Source of the DNA: Hypomesus transpacificus
Taxonomy: Eukaryota > Chordata > Actinopteri > Osmeriformes > Osmeridae
Length of the DNA: 64,000 nt
Assembly (NCBI RefSeq): GCF_021917145.1
Contig: NC_061075.1
Span: 2,835,038-2,899,037 of the forward strand
Reading direction: 5' to 3'
Below are positions 1 to 49,792 of this stretch, piece by piece (position 1 is the stretch's first letter; every line of letters begins with the position of its first letter). Under the pieces are notes generated by a model. The model did no database searches, was not told the origin of the DNA, and was given only the letters and a program-made list of their open reading frames with translations. Position numbers and translations under genes: made by a program.

Positions 1-660
1 GGTTTTCCTGGTGAAACCTTCCGCTAGGTGCGGTTCCAGGAACGTGGAGATATCACCCGTCCACTCATCAAAGATTCAGCTGCAGGTCGGTGAGGTGACA
101 ATGCTCGAGATAAGTTTCCAGCTCCTGTTTCCCTGCTCTCTATGGCTGTGACCTTCCTGGGCTTGAAAACACACTGATTATATGTCCTCACGCTTGTCAA
201 AGCCCGAATGGACAGAGTCCACCTTCCTGAAACCAGCTACTCAGTTACGTCCATTATGGTGGACACTGGTCTGGGTCCGGTAACTTTGCAGCCATACTGC
301 CCTTTGTGTTTATTTAGTTTGCCCCATGGAGAAGACATGACGGCTTCCTAATGAGGTCAGGAACTTGAATGACCTCGGGAATAGTTGTGAAATTCGAGTT
401 TTTAAGTTATGGATGCATAACTTCAACTATGTGGTGACATTTATTTTCCTTCAAACATGTTTTTTTACGCAAATGTCGAGCTGAGATCTTATTCTGTCCA
501 ATGGCCTTTTGCTTCGATTGAAAGCTTGTATCAAAAAGAACGATATTTTGAATCCTTTTTTCATTTAACCTTTATCGCCAGATAAGTCAATTGAGATCCA
601 GTTCTCAAGAAGTGTGTTCCCAACCCCTCAGTGAGTGTCACGTGGTGGGAGGTGTGGGCG
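1..660. other. Gene-free flank
   Basis: No open reading frame, splice pattern or repeat family I can recognise is present here. The sequence is AT-moderate and unique-looking. It lies downstream of kdr. In other vertebrates the next gene on that side is kit, but no kit exon is visible. Confidence 0.4.
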
Positions 661-663
661 GTG

Positions 664-955
664 TTGTTTATTGTTTGTTTATTTCGTTTATTTTTATAGG
701 GACAGTGCACATTAATCACTGTTATAAGAAAAAGTGCCGGTTTTAGCCAGCCGGCTAATTTTCAACCGAAGTCCCTGGACAAGTTATTAGAAACAGTCAC
801 AATGCAAACAGTCATTAAACAACAAACACAAGCAGGGCAACATAGGACAAGCAAGACATAGCATACAGATAGAGCAACATAGAACAAAAAGCAACAAGAC
901 AGAATCCATAAAAGCAACAAAGGGTTTCCACACCTCACAAGCTACAGACATTTAC
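664..955. repeat. Probable dispersed repeat, single copy in window
   Basis: The block starts with a T-rich stretch and 'agggacagtgcacattaat', then an A-rich body of short aacaa/acataga motifs that runs up to the next repeat. The texture, and my memory of similar sequence in other fish, suggest a dispersed element. No second copy lies in this window to prove it. Boundaries are approximate. Confidence 0.35.
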
Positions 956-1265
956 ATTTACATTTATTTACATTTAATCATTTAGCAGACGCTTTTATCC
1001 AAAGCGACTTCCAAGAGAGAGCTTTACAAAGTGCATAGGTCACTGATAATAACAACAAGATAGCCCCAAAGCATTGCGGGTAGCCAAAAACAAGAAGTAC
1101 ACATTGTGAACAACCAAAAAATAAGTTCTAAAGGGAAGAAACCATAAGAGCATGTAGTTAAGCAAGTTACAATTACACAACATGAATCTCTAAGTGCAAG
1201 TGTACCTGTAGGAAAGCAATACAAATAGGATTAACTAAAATAGAATACAACAGTTTAAATCAGCT
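948..1265 (-). repeat. Dispersed retroelement-like repeat, family A, copy 1
   Basis: About 315 bp. It begins with 'atttatttacatttaatca' and then 'tagcagacgcttttatcc', and continues through 'gcataggtcactgataataa'. It is closely similar to copies at 5364-5740 and 32145-32345. The first 55 bp, read on the minus strand, equal the 3' tail of the tRNA-derived SINEs elsewhere in this window (for example 60620-60812). The element is therefore probably in minus orientation and shares a LINE-type tail with those SINEs. The short reading frame inside it (1024-1224) has no coding support. Confidence 0.75.
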
Positions 1266-1560
1266 ACCACTAACCAACAAGTGAGACAGACAACATGGAA
1301 AGGGACAATACAGAGTCCCCGGCGTGCCTACCCAGCGAGGGGGTCTGAGCGGGGACAGTACTGAGCAGGGGGAACTCCACCATCTGCTCCACGGGTCCCT
1401 GGAGGTCCCAGGTCAGTCCTCGGACTCTGCCGGCCGGGAGACAGGGTGCACAGGGAGACCTGCCGGCACACGCATGACAGGACCCACAGCAGGGAGACAG
1501 CAGGACCAGGACTAGCCATCTGGATGGTTACCCTATGGTGGAGAGGGGGCCCGGGGGCTG

Positions 1561-1577
1561 GGAGGGGGGGGGGGGGC
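1561..1577 (+). repeat. Poly-G tract
   Basis: Interrupted run of G (ggaggggggggggggg) in a GC-rich segment. It is a possible quadruplex former and has no gene context. Confidence 0.6.
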
Positions 1578-1692
1578 ATGCTAGGGGAAGCTGGGGGGAG
1601 AGGCCTGGTCCGGACCTGTTGAAACTGGGTGAAACTGTCAGTCGAGACATGAGGTGTGGAACTCTAGAACCTCAGGCTCTGTTGTCTTCCCG

Positions 1693-1854
1693 CAGAACAC
1701 AGAACCAGAACACAGAACCAGAACACAGAACCAGAACACAGATCCAGAACCAGAACCAGAACACAGAACACAGAACACAGAACACAGAACACAGAACCAG
1801 AACACAGAACCAGAACACAGAACCAGAACCAGAACACAGAACCAGAACACAGAA
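1693..1854 (+). repeat. CAGAAC minisatellite
   Basis: Tandem mixture of 'cagaac' and 'cagaacacagaac' units, about 160 bp. Reading frames on both strands (1535-2149 plus, 1638-2009 minus) exist only because the repeat lacks stops. Confidence 0.9.
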
Positions 1855-2289
1855 CGGTCTCTTCTCCTCCTCTCCTCTCCTCGGCCCATGTGATCGTCAG
1901 CACATCTGTCTGGGACGCGAGGGGGACAGACGGCAGGGGAGGGGGGTACCCGACCGGGGGAGACAGACAGAGGTGTCAGCCTGTCTTGCCGTCCTCTCTC
2001 CAACCTCACCTTCTCACAAGCCTCCTGTCCGGGAATTCAAGCGACATAATGGAGCTGTCTGTTCCACGTCACATTTGACTCGCGCACAAAGGTCAGCCGT
2101 GATTTGTCTAGACAAAGGGTTTCTCATCTCATCTGATGGTAGTAGTTAAGTCTGGGCCTGGGGGCGGGCCCCCTACAGACTCCTCTCAGAAGACTGAGTG
2201 ATTACTACCAATCCAGACATTTCTTGGTATCCTCCAGAAGTTTCCTCAATTTCTGTGTGTTTCTGCTTGTCTTCTCTGAGGGATTAGGT

Positions 2290-2372
2290 TGGTTATAGGG
2301 CACTTATCTGTGCTAATCTGTAAAGCCCTTTGTGACACTGCTTGTAAAAAGGGCTTTACAAATTAAAGGGTA
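2290..2372 (+). repeat. Retroelement 3'-tail fragment
   Basis: Contains 'aagccctttgtgacactg' followed by 'cttgtaaaaagggcttta', a hairpin-like tail. It is shared, with divergence, with 3305-3360, 35340-35390 and 41385-41450, so it is a dispersed family. It is probably the 3' end of a non-LTR element or SINE. Confidence 0.6.
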
Positions 2373-2730
2373 TGGTCACGTTCTCCATCACACATTTCCT
2401 TCACAACCCTAGGAGAAGACGACAAATGTATCGTTTTTGCTTTGTCAAACAATGAAGGGCTCATTGAGGTTTGAAATCTCTTTTGCAAGAATGTTCAAGC
2501 CAAGACAGGCAGACCCAAGTTACTGCGCCATGACAGACAGCATGACAAACAAATTGTTTCGTAAGAACGAGTAAGAAAGAAGTAATGTAGCGTAGCAATA
2601 GCATGTTTAACCTTCTCCTTTCTAATCTTCTCTTACGGACCATCACACTGTGGAGCACACCTGCACATTCTTACCCAACCAGGGCCCTAGGCAGACGCTG
2701 CTTGTGTTTTTGAGAGAAGTTGAGTTTTTT

Positions 2731-2797
2731 AAAAGAGAGACAGAGAGAGAGAGACAGAGAGAAAACAGAGAGACACAGAGAGACACAGAGAGACACC

Positions 2798-2873
<76 letters not shown>
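2731..2873 (+). repeat. GA microsatellite
   Basis: About 140 bp of (GA)n with CAGA interruptions. All reading frames across it are low-complexity artefacts. Confidence 0.95.
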
Positions 2874-2875
<2 letters not shown>

Positions 2876-3304
2876 ACAAGCGTGTGTTTTCCATTTCATG
2901 CGCACTCTCCAATTTAATATCTGAAACCCAAAAAAAACTGATCCATTGTGTAATTCAAGGACAATTCCCATGAGCTTAAACAATGCCCATCATCTCCAGC
3001 TGAGTTAATGAGCGTTTCAAGCTGAAAGACTGCTCTCTCGGCCTGATCGCATCCTAACGTAAATCAGTCCAACTGCTCCTCACAACTATTTGAGATGTTC
3101 GTACCTCAGGGACATGGAACCTTTTCAAGTTATCGTTTTGTTTATGACCCCTCTGACAGAAAGAGGCAGTGGGGGGTGGAGGCCAGGGGGTGACGGCAGC
3201 CAGCTAATTAAATTGGGATTTAGGACCCTGCTGAACTGAGACCGTGTGACCTTACAGAGCATGTCTTTTAGGGTTTGAAGGTTATGGGACAGCTCTATGG
3301 GTGT

Positions 3305-3360
3305 GAAGCCCTCTGTGACATTGCTTGTAAAAAGGGCTGTACAAATACATTTTGATTTGA
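3305..3360 (+). repeat. Retroelement 3'-tail fragment
   Basis: Second copy of the tail seen at 2290-2372 ('gaagccctctgtgacattg', 'cttgtaaaaagggctgta'), ending in an ATTTTGATTTGAT-type terminus. Confidence 0.6.
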
Positions 3361-3570
3361 TGTCTTTTAAGGAGAGCCCTCGGCTACAGCTCAGCACAGC
3401 TTCAGGAGTCTCTCTCCTCTCTCTCCTTTCTCCTCTTCTCTTCTCTCTCTCCTCTCTTCCGCTCCCCTCTCTGCCCTCTCCTCCTCTCCTCTTCGTGCTC
3501 ACATCCTGTTGTTGCCAAGTCAGCACTCTTCCTTCCCAGCTGCAGCATCTCTGAAGTGTTTACACCACCT

Positions 3571-3690
3571 AAACACACACACACACACACGCAAACACAC
3601 ATATATCATACTGTACACACACACACACATACACACGCACACATGCTCTATTGTACTCTATGTAAACACCAGCCATGCACATACACACAT
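3571..3690 (+). repeat. CA microsatellite
   Basis: Compound (CA)n with ATACAC interruptions. Confidence 0.9.
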
Positions 3691-4079
3691 TCGCACACTC
3701 TATTGTAGCGCCTGCACTGGTCCTTATCTCTTCCTGCCCGCACACCTGCACCATCAGAGCTCTACTTCCAGGGACTTTGTAGTGCAAGTCCTGTCCAGAC
3801 ACTTGCAGTGTCAGTCCCCCGGACCGAGAGCCAGCTTTTCTCTGCTCCGTGTTAGCGAGCGCCGTCTGGCTGACCTCACAGCCTTGCAGGGGTTCTTCTG
3901 ACAGCATCACTCAGGAAGCCATGGGAATCACGACAACAACAGACTTCTCGACAAGCAAAGATTCCTACGAATAAACAATCTTCCGATTTGATTGGTTGGA
4001 ATTTTGTTCCGGAGTGTTGCTGTCTCTGAGTTGAGGGATGCCGTCCCTCTCCGCGCTGTTTTTTTTCCGGAGGCATAGA

Positions 4080-4263
4080 AGACACTCACACACGTGTAGA
4101 AAACACACACACACATTTACTCTCTTTCACTCTCTCACTCTCTCTCTCTCACACACACATTTACTCTCTCTCACTCTCTCACACACATTTACTCTCTCTT
4201 ACTCTCTCTCACACACACATTTACTCTCTCTCACTCTCTCACACACACATTTACTCTCTCTCA

Positions 4264-4294
<31 letters not shown>

Positions 4295-4560
4295 ACTCTC
4301 ACACACGTGTCGTCTCTCTCACACAGACACACCCATGCTCTCTCTCTCACGCTCACACACATACAGCCGTACAGGGAAAGCAAAGTGACGCATGAGTGTC
4401 CGGTGAGAACTCTGATAACCTACGAAGGCCTTCCTGCACAGCTGTGCTTGTCACACACTCACTGGTCTAGTACTGACCACACACACACACACACACACAC
4501 ATGCTTCCTCTCTCTTACATACACATACATGCACACACATACTCTCTCACACTGGACCAT
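4080..4560 (+). repeat. Compound CA / CTCTCA satellite
   Basis: Several copies of a roughly 32-bp unit built from 'cacacacatttactctctc' and 'actctctcacac' are followed by pure (CA)n at 4273-4300 and again near 4481-4500. Low complexity, no coding content. Confidence 0.9.
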
Positions 4561-5028
4561 CCGCTCCTGCATTGACACGTAAAGGTTCTGTTCCTCGGCA
4601 GCATAAACAAACCAATGCGAGTCTATCTCCACGTCAGCTTCATGGATGTCAGTGATCTTCCCGGAAGGAAGAGACTGACTTCAGGTTGAGACGCGGTAGG
4701 AGAGAAAACATCCTGATGCTTTCTAAATAAAGACCTCCCGTGTCATCCCTACCCCTTGCCTCCCCCATCCCACGCCCCTGACTCCCCCTGCCTCCAGCCT
4801 CCCTCCTCTCAAACAGCTCAATGACATCATTAGAGATTTCTGAATGAAGTACAACATCCAGCCTTATCTTCCCTCCGCCAGAACTGCCATGAGACAATAA
4901 CATCCTGCAAACAACATAATGGACAAAATGGATAATTGTGACATGAAATAGTGTTGTGAAAATCGAGTGTGATTGCTTTGGCATCGCTCAGCGCATGATG
5001 TGATGACAGCTGTAGAAGTGATAGGCCC

Positions 5029-6062
5029 CAGTGTTGGGGAGTAACTGAACACATGTACCGGCGTTACGTATTCAGAATACAAATTATAGGTAACTGTATT
5101 CCGTTACAGTTACAATTTAAATGGTTGGTATTTACAATACAGTTACATTGTTGAAATCAATGGATTACATTACGATACTTATCTGTTTCACGAGTTTATT
5201 CACTCTTTCCCTTAATAAATGAAGGCAACTCCATGCATTTTCCCAGAACTTCTATCTGGTGGTTTCTACACTACAAACACAACTACATCGATCACTCCCA
5301 TGTCATTGCCTCTTGTTCTTTCCTTCTGCAATGCTATTGGCTAAGCCAATGCATGGCCATCACATTACATTTACATTACATTACATTACATTTATTCATT
5401 TAGCAGACGCTTTTATCCAAAGCGACTTCCAAGAGAGAGCTTTACAAAGTGCATAGGTCACTGATAATAACAACAAGATAGCCCCAAAGCATTGCAGGTA
5501 GCCAAAACAAGTGCACATTGTGAACAACCCAAAAATAAGTGCCAAAGGGAAAAACCATAAGAGCATGTAGTTAGCAAGTTACAATTTAAACAACATGAAT
5601 CTGTAAGCGCAAGTGTACCTGTAGAAAAAGACAAGCAACAGTAAAATAAAAATATAAGTAACCAAAAAAAAGAATACAACAGTTTAAATCAGCTACCACT
5701 AACCAACAAGAGCAACAAGTCTCTAAGTAAGTCATTGTGATCCTTGAGCACGGGGGATGCAAACTCACGTACCATGTTTGGCCAAAGCATACCTCTCATC
5801 CACTCTCAAGTAGTTCTTAAGAGACACATACGAGGGTTCTCCTTACAAGAATGTTTGGGAAACCGCACGTAAGAAATAACGATGGTTCGTAGAGAACCCT
5901 CATAACCTCGGTAAACTCCGTTTAGTAAGCAGGATTTGATGGCCGCATTCCTAAAATGCAGTTCAATGTGGAAGTTATCCAAGTAATCCAAGTATTCAGA
6001 ATACGTTACTCAGATTGAGTAACGTAACGAAATATGTTTTTAAAGTATCCTTCCCAACACTG
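5029..6062. mobile_element. Non-autonomous hAT-like DNA transposon with nested repeat
   Basis: The left end reads CAGTGTTGGGGAGTAACTG. The right end, complemented, reads CAGTGTTGGGAAGGATACT. These are imperfect terminal inverted repeats of the CAGTG type typical of hAT elements. Both ends continue into related subterminal sequence ('cgttacgtattcagaatac' on the left, 'gtattcagaatacgttact' on the right). The flanking 8-mers are ataggccc and ttgggccc, matching at 6 of 8 positions, which fits an aged 8-bp target duplication. No transposase reading frame is present. A family A repeat (5364-5740) sits inside and accounts for about a third of the length. Confidence 0.75.
5364..5740 (-). repeat. Dispersed repeat, family A, copy 2 (nested)
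   Basis: The fullest copy in the window. It starts with 'acattacatttattcattt' and 'agcagacgcttttatccaaa' and ends near 'gatccttgagcacggggga'. It is inserted in the hAT-like element 5029-6062, so it is younger than that element. Confidence 0.8.
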
Positions 6063-26706: not shown

Positions 26707-28277
26707 ATGTCAGTAGGGCTCAATGTAATTGAAACTACATGGTTGTTATTAGGAATATTATTTTTCTTGGCTGTATCAATCCACACGATTTCGCTTTACT
26801 TGCCTTATGAATGTGAGAAATTTCAAGCTTTCATTTTATTTCAAGACCTAATCCGATACGGTAAAACTAAGAAAAGTAAACGCGACACCTGGCTGCGTGT
26901 GTTTGACATCCCAAAAAGGTGACAACCTGTTTGATAGTTTCATAGCGGTTGCCCGGACGGGGGGGGGGGGGGGAAATTCCAAGCAGATTCCTGCTCGTTG
27001 AGCAGATGCTGATGCCCCATTGTTCCTTTTGAATAGATGGTTCTGGCACTTCTATGCAGTGTCTGTTCTCTGGAACGGATTGCTTGTGGTCGTATCCCTT
27101 CGTGCCATCCAGTGGGACGAGCCATACCCACCATGGTTGACTGACACACTGAGCTTTCTGGCAGGATCATCGGCGACTCACGGCCAAGGTAGCCGAGCTA
27201 CATTTTCTTTACTCCGTAGTGTCTCGTGTTAGAGTCTGACAAGGTATGTGTTGTCTCTAGTTATTTAAATGAATGGGTTATTCAAATGAATGACCCACTC
27301 AAATGAATGAATCCACCAGAGCTCGATAACAACCCATTCATTTGAATCAGGTGCGTTGGAGCAGGGAAACATCTAGAACATGCAGGGCAGGAGGTTTTCA
27401 AGCCGTCTCTCTTCCAGCTCCACATGTGTGCAGCGTGGCGGTGCAAGTGCTGGTGTGGATTCACTGCCTCAGAAGACTGGCGGAGTGTCTGTATGTCAGC
27501 GTGTTTTCTGATGGTGTCATTCACGTGGTCCAGTATGTGTTTGGCCTGGGATACTACATCCTGCTGGGACTGACTGTACTGTGCTGGGATCGAAACACCG
27601 AAGGGAAAGGTGAGGGTTGACCTGTTTCCGGATGTCATGTAGCTGCTGTATCTTCCATCACATTCCTGTATGATCACATTTAAGCGAGTTCCAACCACAG
27701 ATGTAAATAACACCTCAAGGACATTTTAGTTACCACCCTGTGTGATTGGGTGATGCTCGTTGAAGGGTGTATGGTTTCATTAGAAGGTCCTGTGCCTCCG
27801 GTGTTAACCCAGCTGGGTGTGGTCCAGGCGGCTGGAGTGCTGCTGTTCGCCTGGGCCTCCCTGCTCCAGCACCGCTCCCTGATCACTCTAGCTCACCTGC
27901 GGACTGGGGCTTCAGGTCAGCCATCAGCTTTCAACTTATCAAGTTCAAAATATGCTAAATCTCATGTTGTACCCGTAGTTTTTTTCTCCTTCATAATTTG
28001 ATCTCCTCTTCATGCAGGTGCAGTGGAGACTCTGGCCCACCGGGTTCCCAGCGGGGGATGGTTCGAGCTGGTCTCTTGCCCCCACTACCTGGCAGAGCTG
28101 CTTATCTATGCGTCTCTGAGCCTGGTGTCTGGAGGTGTTTCTCTCACCTGGTGGCTGGTCGTTCTCTACGTCCTCTTCAACCAGATGCTGGCTGCCCTGC
28201 TGTGTCATCAGTTCTACAGGAGCAAGTTTGAGTCATACCCACAGCATCGTAAAGCACTGATACCATTTATATTGTGA
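26707..28277 (+). CDS. srd5a3: Polyprenol reductase / steroid 5-alpha-reductase 3, 5 exons
   Basis: ER multi-pass membrane reductase. In the family it uses NADPH to reduce polyprenol-derived substrate in the dolichol route that supplies N-glycosylation. Exons: 26707-26918, 27037-27188, 27418-27609, 27784-27915, 28018-28277. The sum is 948 nt, or 315 residues (human 318), all GT-AG and in phase. Family marks: [11 protein letters not shown] and [16 protein letters not shown] near the N terminus, [14 protein letters not shown] and [14 protein letters not shown] in the middle, and a conserved C-terminal block with [17 protein letters not shown] (about 242-258), LTWWLVV and the ending [20 protein letters not shown] chose the Met at 26707 because it begins the first hydrophobic segment. 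An in-frame Met 72 nt upstream would add a polar extension. Confidence 0.97.
26959..26973 (+). repeat. Poly-G tract in srd5a3 intron 1
   Basis: Run of G just after the exon 1 donor. Candidate quadruplex and likely length-variable. Confidence 0.7.
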
Positions 28278-28441: not shown

Positions 28442-28724
28442 AGATACATTATTGTATGTTTTATATTTTTACGAAGTGGAATGAGAATATGGGTTGGCTG
28501 TGTGAAAATAGGTTTATCTTACAAGAAGACATGGCCTCTGACATCGAAGGTGATGCTTAATGTTTAATTAATGCTGCCTGCGCCCAAAGCTTCAGTTACA
28601 GTGCGCTTCTGTCAAACTTCATCGCACAAACTATGTATACTTGATTTGGTTAATATGTAAATGTGCTATTATGTTACTGTGGGAGCGGGAAGTATTGCGT
28701 CGGAACATGAGCCACTGCTTTATC

Positions 28725-30718
28725 CAGTAGGAGCTAAATCTTTTTTTGCGTTTTGGACGTCCATATGGACGTAGGAGCTAAATCTTTTTTTGCGTTTTGG
28801 ACGTCCATATGGACGTCCATAGACTGACGGCGATGGCTGCTGATCTTTGCATGGATGGACGGACGGCGATGCTGTTCAGAGTGCCGTCCATAGAGGGAGC
28901 ATATATTTTGGACGGCGTCATAGCCGTCCATATGGACGGCGATGCTGTTCAGAGTGCCGTCCATAGAGGAAGCAGATATTTTGGACGGCGATGGATTAGC
29001 AGGGACGTCCCTCGTGCCGTCCATAGAGGGAGCAGATATTTTGGACGGCGTCATAGCCGTCCATATGGACGGCGATGCTGTTCAGAGTGCCGTCCATAGA
29101 GGGAGCATATATTTTGGACGGCGATGGATTGAATGTTTAGCAGGCTGTTGAGCTAACAGAACTGCCGAAGGCTACCATAGCATGTAGCTAGCTACATTAA
29201 CTTTGGATGACTCAATCTTTTGTCAAGTTAATTTGTATGAATTGCATGTTAGTGCAATATTTACGCCTTTATTCTGTTTTTTTTACATAATCAGCAGTAT
29301 GATCTCATGACAATATAGACTTGAAAAACAATATGTTATGGTTTGGGTTTGCCTATAGGCTACATATATTTTAATTATTTCGAGAATTGTTAATAAAGAC
29401 TCATTTAAAAATTTAAAATTTGGAGTGTTAGGCCCATAGGCTATTACGTTTTGCATTTGTCTCCGCTCAAAGTGGTTCGTGCGCAACATTGGAGCTACTG
29501 ACTGGTGGCTCCAAATCCACCCATAAAACACTTTAAACTGACGGCTTCAAAGACCTAAAGGGCAATGTATTTCATAGGGTCATAACACAATGTTAAAATC
29601 TTAATTGAGTCTTTATTAACAATTCTCGAAATATTTAAAATATATGTAGCCTATATCTAGGCAAACCCTATAACATATTGTTTTTCAAGTCTGTATTGTC
29701 ATGAGATTATATTGTTGATTGGCCTACTTTTGTATGTTAAAAATAAAATAAAGGCGTAAATATATAGCCTTCACTTAAATGCAATTAATACAAAATAACG
29801 TGACAAAACTTATTGAGTCATCCACGGTTGCTGTAGCTACATTCATGGTAGCCTTTGACGGCTTTGGTTTGGCTCAACACATCGTATTGTGTTTTGCATT
29901 GGTCTCCGCTCCAAGCGAGTGTTTGTTGTTTTGCGTTTGTCTCCGTGCGCAAAGTTCGTGCGCAAGATTGGAGCTACTGACTGGTGGCTTCAAATCCACC
30001 CATAAAACACTTAAACTGACGGTTTAAAAGACCTAAATGGCAATGTATTTCATAGGGTCATAACACAATGTTAACATTTTAAATGAGTCTTTATTAACAA
30101 TTCTCGAAATAATTAAAATAAATGTAGCCTATAGGCAAACCCAAACCATAACATATTGTTTTTCAAGTCTATATTGTCATGAGATCATACTGCTGATTAT
30201 GTAAAAAAAACAGAATAAAGGCGTAAATATTGCACTAACATGCAATTCATACAAATTAACTTGACAAAAGATTGAGTCATCCAAAGTTAATGTAGCTAGC
30301 TACATGCTATGGTAGCCTTCGGCAGTTCTGTTAGCTCAACAGCCTGCTAAACATTCAATCCATCGCCGTCCAAAATATATGCTCCCTCTATGGACGGCAC
30401 TCTGAACAGCATCGCCGTCCATATGGACGGCTATGACGCCGTCCAAAATATCTGCTCCCTCTATGGACGGCACGAGGGACGTCCCTGCTAATCCATCGCC
30501 GTCCAAAATATCTGCTTCCTCTATGGACGGCACTCTGAACAGCATCGCCGTCCATATGGACGGCTATGACGCCGTCCAAAATATATGCTCCCTCTATGGA
30601 CGGCACTCTGAACAGCATCGCCGTCCGTCCATCCATGCAAAGATCAGCAGCCATCGCCGTCAGTCTATGGACGTCCATATGGACGTCCAAAACGCAAAAA
30701 AAGATTTAGCTGCCTCTC
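28725..30718. mobile_element. 2-kb non-autonomous hAT-like foldback transposon
   Basis: Flanked by perfect 8-bp direct repeats GCTTTATC (28717-28724 and 30719-30726), the target-duplication length of hAT elements. Termini are imperfectly inverted: left CAGTAGGAGCTAAATC, right complement GAGAGGCAGCTAAATC. Inside are near-identical inverted arms of about 635 bp (28776-29410 and 30077-30711, symmetric about 29743). Each arm carries several GTCCATATGGAC palindromes and repeats built on 'ccgtccatagagggagca'. The centre holds two diverged direct copies of a roughly 450-bp block (about 29435-29880 and 29885-30330), and the second copy overlaps the right arm. The same 100-residue frame appears on opposite strands (28797-29099 and 30388-30690), which simply reflects the inverted arms. 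No transposase is encoded. Confidence 0.85.
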
Positions 30719-30804
30719 GCTTTATCTACAACTTAATCAGCCGTTTCTTGGTAACTTCCTTCTCTTCTCTGCACGTCTGGCAAACACGACACTTTTTTCC
30801 ATGA

Positions 30805-31130: not shown

Positions 31131-34088
31131 ATGCCTTTCCTGTTCGATGGAAGGGATGAACGCGCTAACAGAAGAGTGATGTGTGTTTTGCTGGCTGGGG
31201 TAGTTCTGGTGTTGTTCTCCGTTGGAGTTGCTGGTACCCCGGAGGAACATAAACCCGTACAGGAACAATTGCCCCAAGAGGTACACTTACCTGCTTTTTA
31301 ACCAAAACACCTGTTTTGGCTAATTGGCTAACTTGCTAATGGTTGCTAGCTACTGTTTTGAGGACAAGACAGTCTTTCTGACTGCATTGTAGCTGGGGCC
31401 TCAATGTGTAGTGAGAAAGCGGCTTTACATAGGTTTGGTGTTATGTTTTGATTGGTAATATGACGAGAACCACATTTATATATATTAGCTAAGTGTTGTT
31501 GTTAACATTACAAACTAGATGGCGAAAAAATTATGAGGTTGTAACATTTTCTCAACTCTTCTGTTTTGCTTAGAGCAAAACAGGGAATTGCTATCAACAC
31601 ACAGAGCCAACTAGCTAATACTAGCTAACATGCTGGTTTCCCTCCATACAGAAAGTCACCACAGTACACCCTATAAGTGTAGTTGGAAGTGAAAATGATC
31701 CGAACAAAGGCAACCTGGGCTTCATCCATGCTTTTGTTGCGTCCTTCTCCGTCATCATCGTGTCGGAGCTGGGAGACAAGACGTTCTTCATCGCAGCTAT
31801 CATGGCCATGCGGTACAACAGGTTCACCGTGCTCGTCGGGGCTATGCTTGCTCTGAGCTTCATGACCTGCCTCTCAGGTAAGAGGGGATGGGAGGAGGGA
31901 AGGGTTGGTGAGGCGATGGAGGGGTGGTAGGATGAATGGAGAGGGTCAAATATGTCTCAAGACCCACGATAGATTCGAGATTTGCTAAAGTGGTGCTTCC
32001 TTGGACTGTGTGTGTGTTCTGGGTTTTGTCAGGGCTTCTATACTGGAAGCGTGTGGTCTGCCTGTTACTGTACTCATTTAGCAGGCGCTTTTACCCAAAA
32101 CATCAACTTCAAATTGAACTGCTCTATACACAGCGGTAACCACAACTCTACATTTACATTTATTCATTTAGCAGACGCTTTTATCCAAAGCGACTTCCAA
32201 GAGAGAGCTTTACAGAGTGCATAGGTCACTGATAATAACAAGATAGCCCCAAAACATTGCGAGTAGCCAAAAACATGAAACACATATTGTGAAGAACCAA
32301 AATAAGTGGCAAAGGAAAGAACCAAAAGAGCATGTAGTTAAACTGAACTGTTGTCTCTGTGTCTCAGTGCTGTTTGGCTACGCCACCACCATCATCCCCA
32401 GGATTTACACCTACTACGTGTCCACTGCCCTGTTTGCCATCTTCGGGGTGCGCATGCTCCGCGAGGGGCTGAAGATGAGCCCAGACGAGGGCCAGGAGGA
32501 GCTGGAGGAGGTGCAGGCTGAGATCAAGAAGAAGGATGAGGAGGTGAGGGCCGGGAAGCCGTGGGGTCATGCCTGGTCAAGGTATTATATCAATGTGTGT
32601 GGGGGGGGGAGGTAGGGAGGGACGTGTGCGGAGGGGTTAGGGGAGGAAGGGGGGAATATGGGTGGAGGAGAGAAGGGGAGGGGGGGTATGAATGTGTGTG
32701 GAGGGGTATGGGTGGAGTGGGTGTGTGTGTGTGTTGAGAAGGGGGTATGGAGATGTGTGGTCTGGCTCGGGGGTGTCTTCTGGGTCTGGTCTGAGCTCGG
32801 CTGTAGTTCTGGGTCTGGTGTGGCGTCTGGTTCACGTTGGGACTCTTTCAGCTCCAGAGGTCGAAGCAGCAGAACGGTATGTCGGACGTGGAGATGGGCG
32901 CCGGCGCCGGGGTGCAGCAGAGCCGCTGGCGTTACCTCATCTCCCCCGTGTTCCTGCAGGCGCTCACCCTCACCTTCCTGGCCGAGTGGGGCGACCGCTC
33001 CCAGCTCACCACCATCATCCTGGCCGCCCGTGAGGTCAGTCTGGGGCCCAGAGCCCAAGCTTTGAGCTGGAGCTCTCTACTGATCCAGGGCTTAAAGTAT
33101 TCCGGCACCGTGCCGGATTTCCGGCGTGCGGCCGCAAGAAGAAAAATAAGGGGGGGAACTTGCATGCATATTAATATTTTTGGGTCAATTGATTTCACCT
33201 ACCAATCCTATGAGAGGAGCACAGCTATAACTGACGTTACATGCCTATCAGAAACAGAGCAGGGTGGGTCCTGGCCACACGGTGTGAATTATATCCATAG
33301 GACACGTCGACGTTGTAAGCATGGAGCGCAAATTCATGAAGCCTGGGGATGATGTCCTTACCCATACATGTAAGACTACAAAATAAATGGCGCTGGTTTG
33401 TGGTTAGAAAAAAGTAGAGACGGCGAGCCTTTTGGCAGTTAGCGCCAGAAACTGAGGGAGCCTGGTGCTTGTTTCAGCACGTTTTGCAACAGCAACGTTG
33501 CAACAGCAATGCAACAAGAACCCATTAGTTTTATGAGTATAGCGCATCAGCAACACCCTCCCTTTGGTTTGCTTCATTAAAGTATTGATATTTGAGCATA
33601 AATCGACACATTACATTTAGCAGACGCTCTTATCCAGAGCGACTTACAGTAAGTACAAGGACATTCCCCCCGAGGCAAGTAGGGTGAAGTGCCTTGCCCA
33701 AGGACACAACGTGATTTGGCTCGGCCGGGAATCAAACTGGCTACCTTCAGATTACTAGCCCGATTCCGTCACCGTTCAGCCACCTAACTCCTATTATTGT
33801 GTTGCGCCCTCAGGACCCTTTTGGAGTGGCAGTGGGCGGTACCCTGGGACACTGCCTGTGCACCGGGCTGGCCGTGGTCGGAGGAAGGATGATCGCCCAG
33901 AAGATCTCCGTCCGAACCGGTAACCCCTCTCTCTGCCAGCTGTGGTTTCCCTGCCAGCCGGTCTCTTGTCTGCTCGTGGTTCCTTCATATTCTCTTTGTT
34001 TGGTTCCGCAGTTACGATCATCGGGGGCGTCGTCTTCCTGGGCTTCGCCTTCTCGGCACTCTTCATCAAGCCGGACGCTGCACTCTGA
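31131..34088 (+). CDS. tmem165: Transmembrane protein 165 (Golgi Mn/Ca transporter, UPF0016/GDT1), 6 exons
   Basis: Golgi membrane protein of the GDT1/UPF0016 family, thought to exchange Ca/Mn for protons and supply Mn to glycosyltransferases. Exons: 31131-31280, 31652-31877, 32368-32543, 32852-33034, 33814-33919, 34012-34088. The sum is 918 nt, or 305 residues (human about 324), all GT-AG and in phase. An N-terminal hydrophobic segment (about 17-35) acts as signal or anchor. The two family signature motifs are present: ELGDKT (89-94) and EWGDRS (229-234). A charged loop rich in E and K (LEEVQAEIKKKDEE, end of exon 3) separates the two halves. It runs in the same direction as srd5a3, with a 3' UTR to about 35.2 kb. 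Repeats are inserted immediately before exons 3 and 5. Confidence 0.97.
32145..32345 (-). repeat. Dispersed repeat, family A, copy 3 (tmem165 intron 2)
   Basis: 'acatttattcatttagcaga' then 'cgcttttatccaaagcgact', continuing to 'agagcatgtagttaaactga'. It is truncated relative to the copies at 948 and 5364, and ends about 22 bp before the exon 3 acceptor. Confidence 0.8.
32600..32830 (+). repeat. G-rich low-complexity segment, tmem165 intron 3
   Basis: Irregular GGGG(A/T)GG runs with 'gtatgggtggagtgggtgtg' units. Purine-rich and possibly quadruplex-prone. Confidence 0.6.
33606..33795 (-). repeat. tRNA-derived SINE, full length, tmem165 intron 4
   Basis: On the minus strand: tRNA-like head with B box near 33735-33750 ('ccgagc' and 'gggaatcaaactgg' on plus), body 'gtccttgggcaaggcacttc', and 3' tail 'gtcgctctggataagagcgt'. 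It matches 58803-59003 (same orientation) and 60620-60812 (opposite). It ends about 18 bp before the exon 5 acceptor. Confidence 0.85.
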
Positions 34089-49689: not shown

Positions 49690-49792
49690 AGCATTTGGAG
49701 CACCCTACTTGCCTCGGGGGGAATGTCCCTGTACTTACTGTAAGTCGCTCTGGATAAGAGTGTCTGCTAAATAACTCAATATAAATATAAAC
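49690..49792 (+). repeat. Truncated tRNA-derived SINE (3' half)
   Basis: 'acttgcctcggggggaatgt', 'ccctgtacttactgtaagtc', then 'gctctggataagagtgtctg', the same 3' half as 60620-60812. The tRNA-like head is missing. Confidence 0.75.

Follow-up and report, generated by a model that had tools for sequence, protein, structure and literature searches.

A probable non-autonomous foldback DNA transposon with unlike tips and 8-bp target site duplications in a fish genome

Structure of the element and its gene setting

The window analyzed here, a stretch of 64,000 nt, contains on its forward strand the end of a steroid 5-alpha-reductase-like gene (28035..28277), which was recognized by a match to PF02544 (Steroid_dh) at 28035-28274 with an E value of 8e-19 and which stops at 28277. 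A match to GDT1 near 33814-33918 (E value 3.9e-5, 24.4 bits) fell below the family cut-off of 27. The initial annotation had named the neighboring genes srd5a3 and tmem165, and the Steroid_dh match together with the sub-cut-off GDT1 match at about 33.8 kb agrees with these names. A foldback element lies between the two matches; its left target site duplication begins 440 bp past the stop codon, and, provided that the next gene starts with the ATG at 31131, its other end would be located about 0.4 kb before that gene.

The element occupies 28725..30718 (1994 bp, no strand assigned) and is flanked by two forward-strand copies of GCTTTATC, one at 28717..28724 and the other at 30719..30726. When both strands of the window were checked, GCTTTATC was found at these two positions only. 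The expected count in the shuffled window was 1.37, so that the 8-mer by itself is not rare; its placement is, since the ends of the element are mirror-symmetric (28725 pairs with 30718) and GCTTTATC directly abuts both of them. The perfect 8-bp duplication at both flanks that had been reported from the sequence was thereby confirmed. The left tip is CAGTAGG (28725..28731, forward strand) and the right tip, read inwards on the reverse strand, is GAGAGGC (30712..30718). The left end also carries a perfect 44-bp tandem duplication (28727..28814, forward strand), an insertion that, among 39 copies compared, was listed for the window copy only.

The left inverted arm (28776..29410, forward strand) and the right inverted arm (30077..30711, reverse strand) match at 634 of 635 positions, in accordance with the initial description of near-identical arms of about 635 bp. 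When 28776-29420 was compared with 30067-30711, complementarity was 99.4% across 645 nt; past 29410, similarity stayed below the top score among 300 shuffles (15.0 versus 18.5 and 16.5 versus 18.0). Each arm contains 13 GGACGGC/GCCGTCC repeats, compared with 4 in the remaining window and with a mean of 0.028 and a maximum of 2 in 1000 Markov sequences. The element also contains perfect palindromes, 16 to 20 bp in length, the majority built on GTCCATATGGAC.

The arms enclose a central loop (29411..30076, no strand assigned), the orientation of which relative to the tips, designated A, is the less common of two, being found in 4 of 39 copies. A first, diverged direct copy of a loop/inner-arm block (29448..29879, forward strand) is 82% identical to a second direct copy (29928..30341, forward strand) that merges into the right arm. 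The center had been described as two direct copies of about 450 bp; both blocks are present, but because the second runs into the right arm the description is a rough one. This tandem block is probably an older duplication. The element thus has the build of a foldback, with long near-identical inverted arms and internal tandem repeats around a middle.

No cellular function of the element is indicated. The predicted fold of a transcript through it has an energy of -1449 kcal/mol, and in this model 634 of the 635 arm positions pair with their mirror positions; five mononucleotide shuffles gave -505 to -522 kcal/mol and three other stretches of the window -601 to -633 kcal/mol. The family could serve as a test case for the production of small RNAs from a long hairpin close to genes. 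The window as a whole (1-64000) is very dense in minisatellites and microsatellites (159 rows in Tandem Repeats Finder), and two UnaL2 LINE 3' ends were noted in it, at 33607-33660 on the reverse strand and at 49727-49780 on the forward strand.

Copies, tips and remnants in the host genome

The host genome (437 Mb in 376 contigs) was searched, with 40 of 210 candidates scored, and 219 matches were obtained, including near-full copies at 96-100% on many contigs. A further 39 copies were fetched (loci are given L numbers). L044, in which a single end was visible because the copy is split by an insert (its full locus is L066), was left out, and with the window copy included the sample comprised 39 copies with both ends. 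A perfect 8-bp duplication was present in 35 of these. The duplications of L031 and L048 match at 7 of 8 positions, L043 has no target site duplication (TSD), and L046, which is nested in the tip of the older copy L068 and is missing 3 terminal bases, is bordered by TCCTACTG on both sides once the missing bases are allowed for. Perfect duplications were also found in L066, L070 and L084, and the duplication of L068 is CCAGTTCT, its right-hand copy being located past the nested L046.

When flanks of different copies were paired randomly, 0 of 5000 draws matched at 8 bp. Comparison of 250-base flanks revealed that L029 and L032 are similar, lying at different places of one repeat, and that L032 and L046 share a 45-base match; no further similar pairs were found. 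A paralogous empty site of L032 could be read beside L029, where GGTTATTT occurs once and uninterrupted (119 identities, 1 mismatch, 1 gap). The empty site of L029, compared in turn, was not clean, with 5 mismatches and 9 gaps beside 108 identities. The element is thus represented by multiple dispersed copies with target site duplications. The initial annotation had made its proposal of a foldback transposon with an 8-bp target duplication depend on other genome copies having the same boundaries and duplication, and the many copies, the proportion of perfect duplications and the one clean paralogous empty site bear it out. The family looks young and is abundant in one fish.

In all 39 copies the outermost 7 bp differ between the two ends, one being CAGTAGG and the other GAGAGGC (the tip of L046 is damaged), and the arm bases that follow agree. 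Exact 16-base tips occur in the host genome 109 times for the CAG end and 233 times for the GAG end, and reversed controls gave 0. Tips were paired when located within 15 kb of each other, using the tips listed, which are complete for contigs 1-14. In these contigs 37 exact-tip pairs were obtained, comprising 36 CAG/GAG pairs and one GAG/GAG pair (L071). Unlike tips as an absolute rule are broken by this one copy. It has no TSD, as would be expected if it was born by recombination and not by transposition, although it is a single case.

There were 67 unpaired tips in contigs 1-14, namely 60 GAG and 7 CAG. Among six unpaired GAG tips sampled, four (L073-L076) proved to be one 23-bp remnant, L072 a 24-bp remnant and L077 an older relative. 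The 23-bp remnant joins 19 bases from the GAG end to ACTG from the other tip and lies between duplications of ACTAAACT, and with this duplication it sits inside another, dispersed repeat; the 24-bp remnant is flanked by duplications of GAACTATT. The two kinds represent at least two independent events and are read as near-complete loss of elements from between their 8-bp duplications, possibly by deletion at the foot of the hairpin. Of the seven unpaired CAG tips, all of which were read, five (L080-L084) lead into diverged copies, L084 having one change in the right tip and a perfect duplication; the tip in L079 breaks off after 58 bp, and that in L085 is followed by 51 further shared bases.

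Target sites, superfamily and candidate parents

The target motif was derived from the 35 perfect sites, pooled on both strands (n=70). The strongest position is -4, outside the duplication, where a pyrimidine is present in 60 of 70 (chi-square 50.3), followed by -2 (23.7) and -5 (17.7); values within the duplication range from 1.5 to 12.3. In the available parts of the sources (PMC10368747, PMC3276498), the target is given as nTnnnnAn for Hermes and hobo and as GTCCGGAC for the P-element. At the fish sites T is found at TSD position 2 in 4 of 35 and A at position 7 in 7 of 35, and the P-element motif was not seen at the 35 sites.

An origin from a P-superfamily (Galileo-like), Zisupton (KDZ) or Mutator-like parent is given about an even chance. 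According to the portions available of the respective papers, P and Zisupton both make 8-bp TSDs (PMC3276498, PMC12730594), Galileo belongs to the P elements, has foldback arms and inserts at a palindromic motif (PMC4168063), and foldbacks mostly seem to be Mutator members (PMC4079207). The host genome also contains 17 KDZ matches (61 of 61 candidates scored); however, inspection by eye placed none of them within 10 kb of the exact tips listed, and three fetched KDZ loci are without an exact tip. A P-superfamily parent is disfavored by the target motif, which is unlike GTCCGGAC.

Descent from the hAT superfamily proper, whose transposase would cut CAG-type tips and bind subterminal repeats, is plausible, though we place it somewhat short of even. 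The 8-bp TSD, the tip that begins with CAG and the many subterminal repeats all accord with it, as do 150 hAT dimerization matches listed in the genome (150 of 766 candidates scored). hAT elements typically have C at the outer end of both terminal inverted repeats (TIRs), of the CAG type, whereas one tip of the fish family is GAGAGGC in all 39 copies. The low counts of T and A at TSD positions 2 and 7 likewise speak against nTnnnnAn (PMC10368747, PMC3276498, as far as available). The label "hAT-like" in the initial annotation agrees with the 8-bp TSD (35 of 39) and not with the tips or the target motif. None of the listed dimerization matches was seen by eye within 10 kb of the exact tips listed, and no exact tip was present in five hAT loci that were fetched and that have long open frames, their only tip matches being unpaired and having up to 4 substitutions. 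For these transposase comparisons the tip listing comprised 100 of 109 CAG and 100 of 233 GAG tips, the latter reaching early contig 15. Across the five hAT and three KDZ loci (L087-L094), unpaired matches with up to 4 substitutions occurred in 6 of 8, and none of the loci showed 11-base inverted ends combined with an 8-bp duplication.

Neither the long copies read nor the hAT and KDZ loci searched yielded an autonomous partner. L066 and L068, read as candidate parents, carry inserts (1.39 kb and 3.47 kb) that are mutually unrelated, the frames having been checked by eye, and L070 (7.85 kb) is interrupted by a retrotransposon. L077/L078 is an older relative in which a search of 3 kb revealed no transposase domain; L079/L086 is a 58-bp tip beside an SRP RNA array, with weak and unrelated Pfam matches in L079; and L085, with four of six frames searched, gave one sub-threshold non-transposase match. 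Relatives in viral contigs were sought with four DNA patterns, of which one was unmatched and three led to 18 stretches whose matches reach little past the pattern (21 bases at best) and are ascribed to chance; plasmids and phages gave no match. A protein search with an arm frame returned one match (E value 2.4, 16 identical residues), the window matched back at 8e-07, and the result was not used.

In build, the fish family resembles the sea urchin TU elements and Xenopus 1723, which have long inverted repeats, tandem outer repeats and 8-bp duplications. In the accessible text of PMC4168063 and PMC2775673, Galileo of Drosophila (with Kepler and Newton), a member of the P superfamily, is described as having foldback-like long TIRs, TIR-only copies, a 7-8-bp TSD and a palindromic target motif, and some copies carry tandem repeats within their TIRs; the arms of some GalileoN copies are more alike within than between copies, and the middle segment is opposite in direction in two copies at inversion breakpoints. 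The fish family resembles Galileo, as described there, in its long foldback TIRs, tandem repeats in the arms, short TSD and a middle that lies either way, and differs in its 8-bp TSD (35 of 39), unlike 7-bp tips, pyrimidine at -4 and lack of a transposase link. Tetris of Drosophila virilis, to judge from the part of PMC4079207 available, is a non-autonomous foldback with internal tandem repeats and an 8-10-bp TSD for which no autonomous copy was found; it has the same foldback build, but three structurally complete copies, whereas the fish family has dozens of young ones and a TSD of 8 bp only. The Hermes/hobo type of hAT shares the 8-bp TSD, subterminal repeats and unlike ends (PMC10368747, in part) and differs in the nTnnnnAn target and in its tips, long foldback arms being a feature of the fish family. 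Since Galileo and Tetris share its architecture, the fish family joins a known kind of foldback. Unlike tips that stay constant as a pair, together with isomers still able to transpose, were not seen in the available parts of the Galileo and Tetris accounts. No vertebrate foldback family was named in a literature search at abstract level, though the full texts of PMC12368964 and PMC8758764 might name one, and a literature text search with the tip and palindrome letters gave no match.

Loop orientation and probable arm recombination

Loop orientation was scored by orienting copies by their tips and comparing them with the reference L030, either straight or with its inner part reversed. Four copies (window, L027, L028 and L036) match reversed L030 at 99.6-99.7% and straight L030 at 94.8-94.9% (orientation A), and 35 copies match straight L030 at 98.6-100% and reversed L030 at 94.1-95.2% (orientation B). 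A tree of 44 loops (the 39 copies plus L066, L068, L070, L081 and L083) was generated with FastTree, midpoint rooted and without support values; L080, L082 and L084, with fewer than 450 bases aligned, were left out, and their partial matches point to B, A and A, respectively. The Fitch minimum on this tree is 2 orientation changes, one on the young A group, which is nested among young B copies, and one on the older L083. At least two changes on the tree imply that the arms recombine, and crossover between inverted arms is supported as the simple explanation for the two loop orientations in these sequences.

An alternative is that the arms owe their identity solely to a recent origin or spread of the inverted duplication, in which case no arm-arm recombination would be required. 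The young copies accord with this, since the two arms of one copy differ on average at 1.27 positions (inner arms, 13 of 39 copies dropped for unequal length) and opposite-side arms of different copies at 1.30 (494 of 1482 dropped for unequal length), while same-side arms of different copies are closer, at 0.85 for the left (378 of 741 dropped) and 0.87 for the right (0 of 741 dropped). Within-copy homogenization was accordingly not supported for the young copies, and coordinated change is claimed for older time only. The initial annotation had proposed recent insertion or arm homogenization; a young family is supported, homogenization found no support among young copies, and recombination between arms is supported by the isomers and an old copy.

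The older copy L068 differs from L030 by 3.1-3.9% of aligned arm bases, plus many gaps, while its own arms are 98.1% alike in the inner piece (11 mismatches, 27 gaps) and show 0 mismatches and 6 gaps over 108 aligned bases in the outer piece. Short insertions common to both of its arms are present in neither arm of the window copy, and the diverged inner block of the window copy was seen, by reading, to resemble the old L068 arms at differing places. Whichever state is older, both arms of L068 appear to have changed together. The loop inversions on at least two branches, and an old copy with arms 98% alike that are jointly unlike young arms, make recent duplication alone improbable. Palindromes are difficult to assemble, but dozens of loci, each with its own flanks and with exact TSDs, share these arms, and an assembly artefact as the source of the inverted arms is exceedingly hard to credit.

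In the arm alignment certain groups of copies share variants between their two arms, and other variants are confined to one side (tip columns, which were badly aligned, were unused). Arm length, measured to the inner anchor, varies mainly on the CAG side. The CAG-side arm of B copies ranges from 417 to 990 bases, and their GAG-side arm is 635 bases in all except L065 (502). In A copies the GAG side is 635 bases, or 608 in L036, and the CAG side is 635, or 679 in the window copy.

The family is probably a non-autonomous cut-and-paste foldback DNA transposon, moved in trans with 8-bp staggered cuts, whose long arms recombine. A transposase acting in trans would make the staggered cuts that move the element; it would read the tips and the GGACGGC repeats and, as we infer, use two unlike tips, CAGTAGG and GAGAGGC. 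Crossover within the arms would turn the center around with respect to the tips, and in the longer run the arms may be kept alike by conversion or template switching that spares the last 7 bp. The window copy would belong to a flipped sublineage (orientation A) that kept transposing and later acquired the 44-bp terminal duplication.

More tentatively, and with the balance against it, this vertebrate family may be viewed as a recombining palindrome, in which the arms repeatedly flip the center and rewrite each other while the transposase enforces unlike 7-bp tips; the parent might then be a transposase lineage new to such tips and to a target with Y at -4 and R at +4. If this is true, only copies with unlike tips can move, and arm recombination and transposition would jointly explain the near-perfect arms, the constant unlike tips and the recurrent isomers. 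The unlike tips, the directional loop and the repeat number of the arm on the CAG side provide built-in markers for counting arm-arm recombination and palindrome loss in the vertebrate germ line.

Several loci carry further sequences. The inserts in L066 (7345-8733) and L068 (5305-8770) are unrelated and share one position in the CAG-side arm (reference position about 120-129), which may be a hot spot for insertion; by eye, the L066 insert seems to end in inverted repeats. The older copy L070 contains a retrotransposon (310-5656), presumably of the Gypsy type, whose 372-bp repeats are 99.7% identical. In L079 and L086 (C6:8033929-8042029) at least 13 full-length SRP (7SL) RNA matches are arranged in tandem with a spacing of about 585 bp, and this array adjoins the 58-bp transposon tip.
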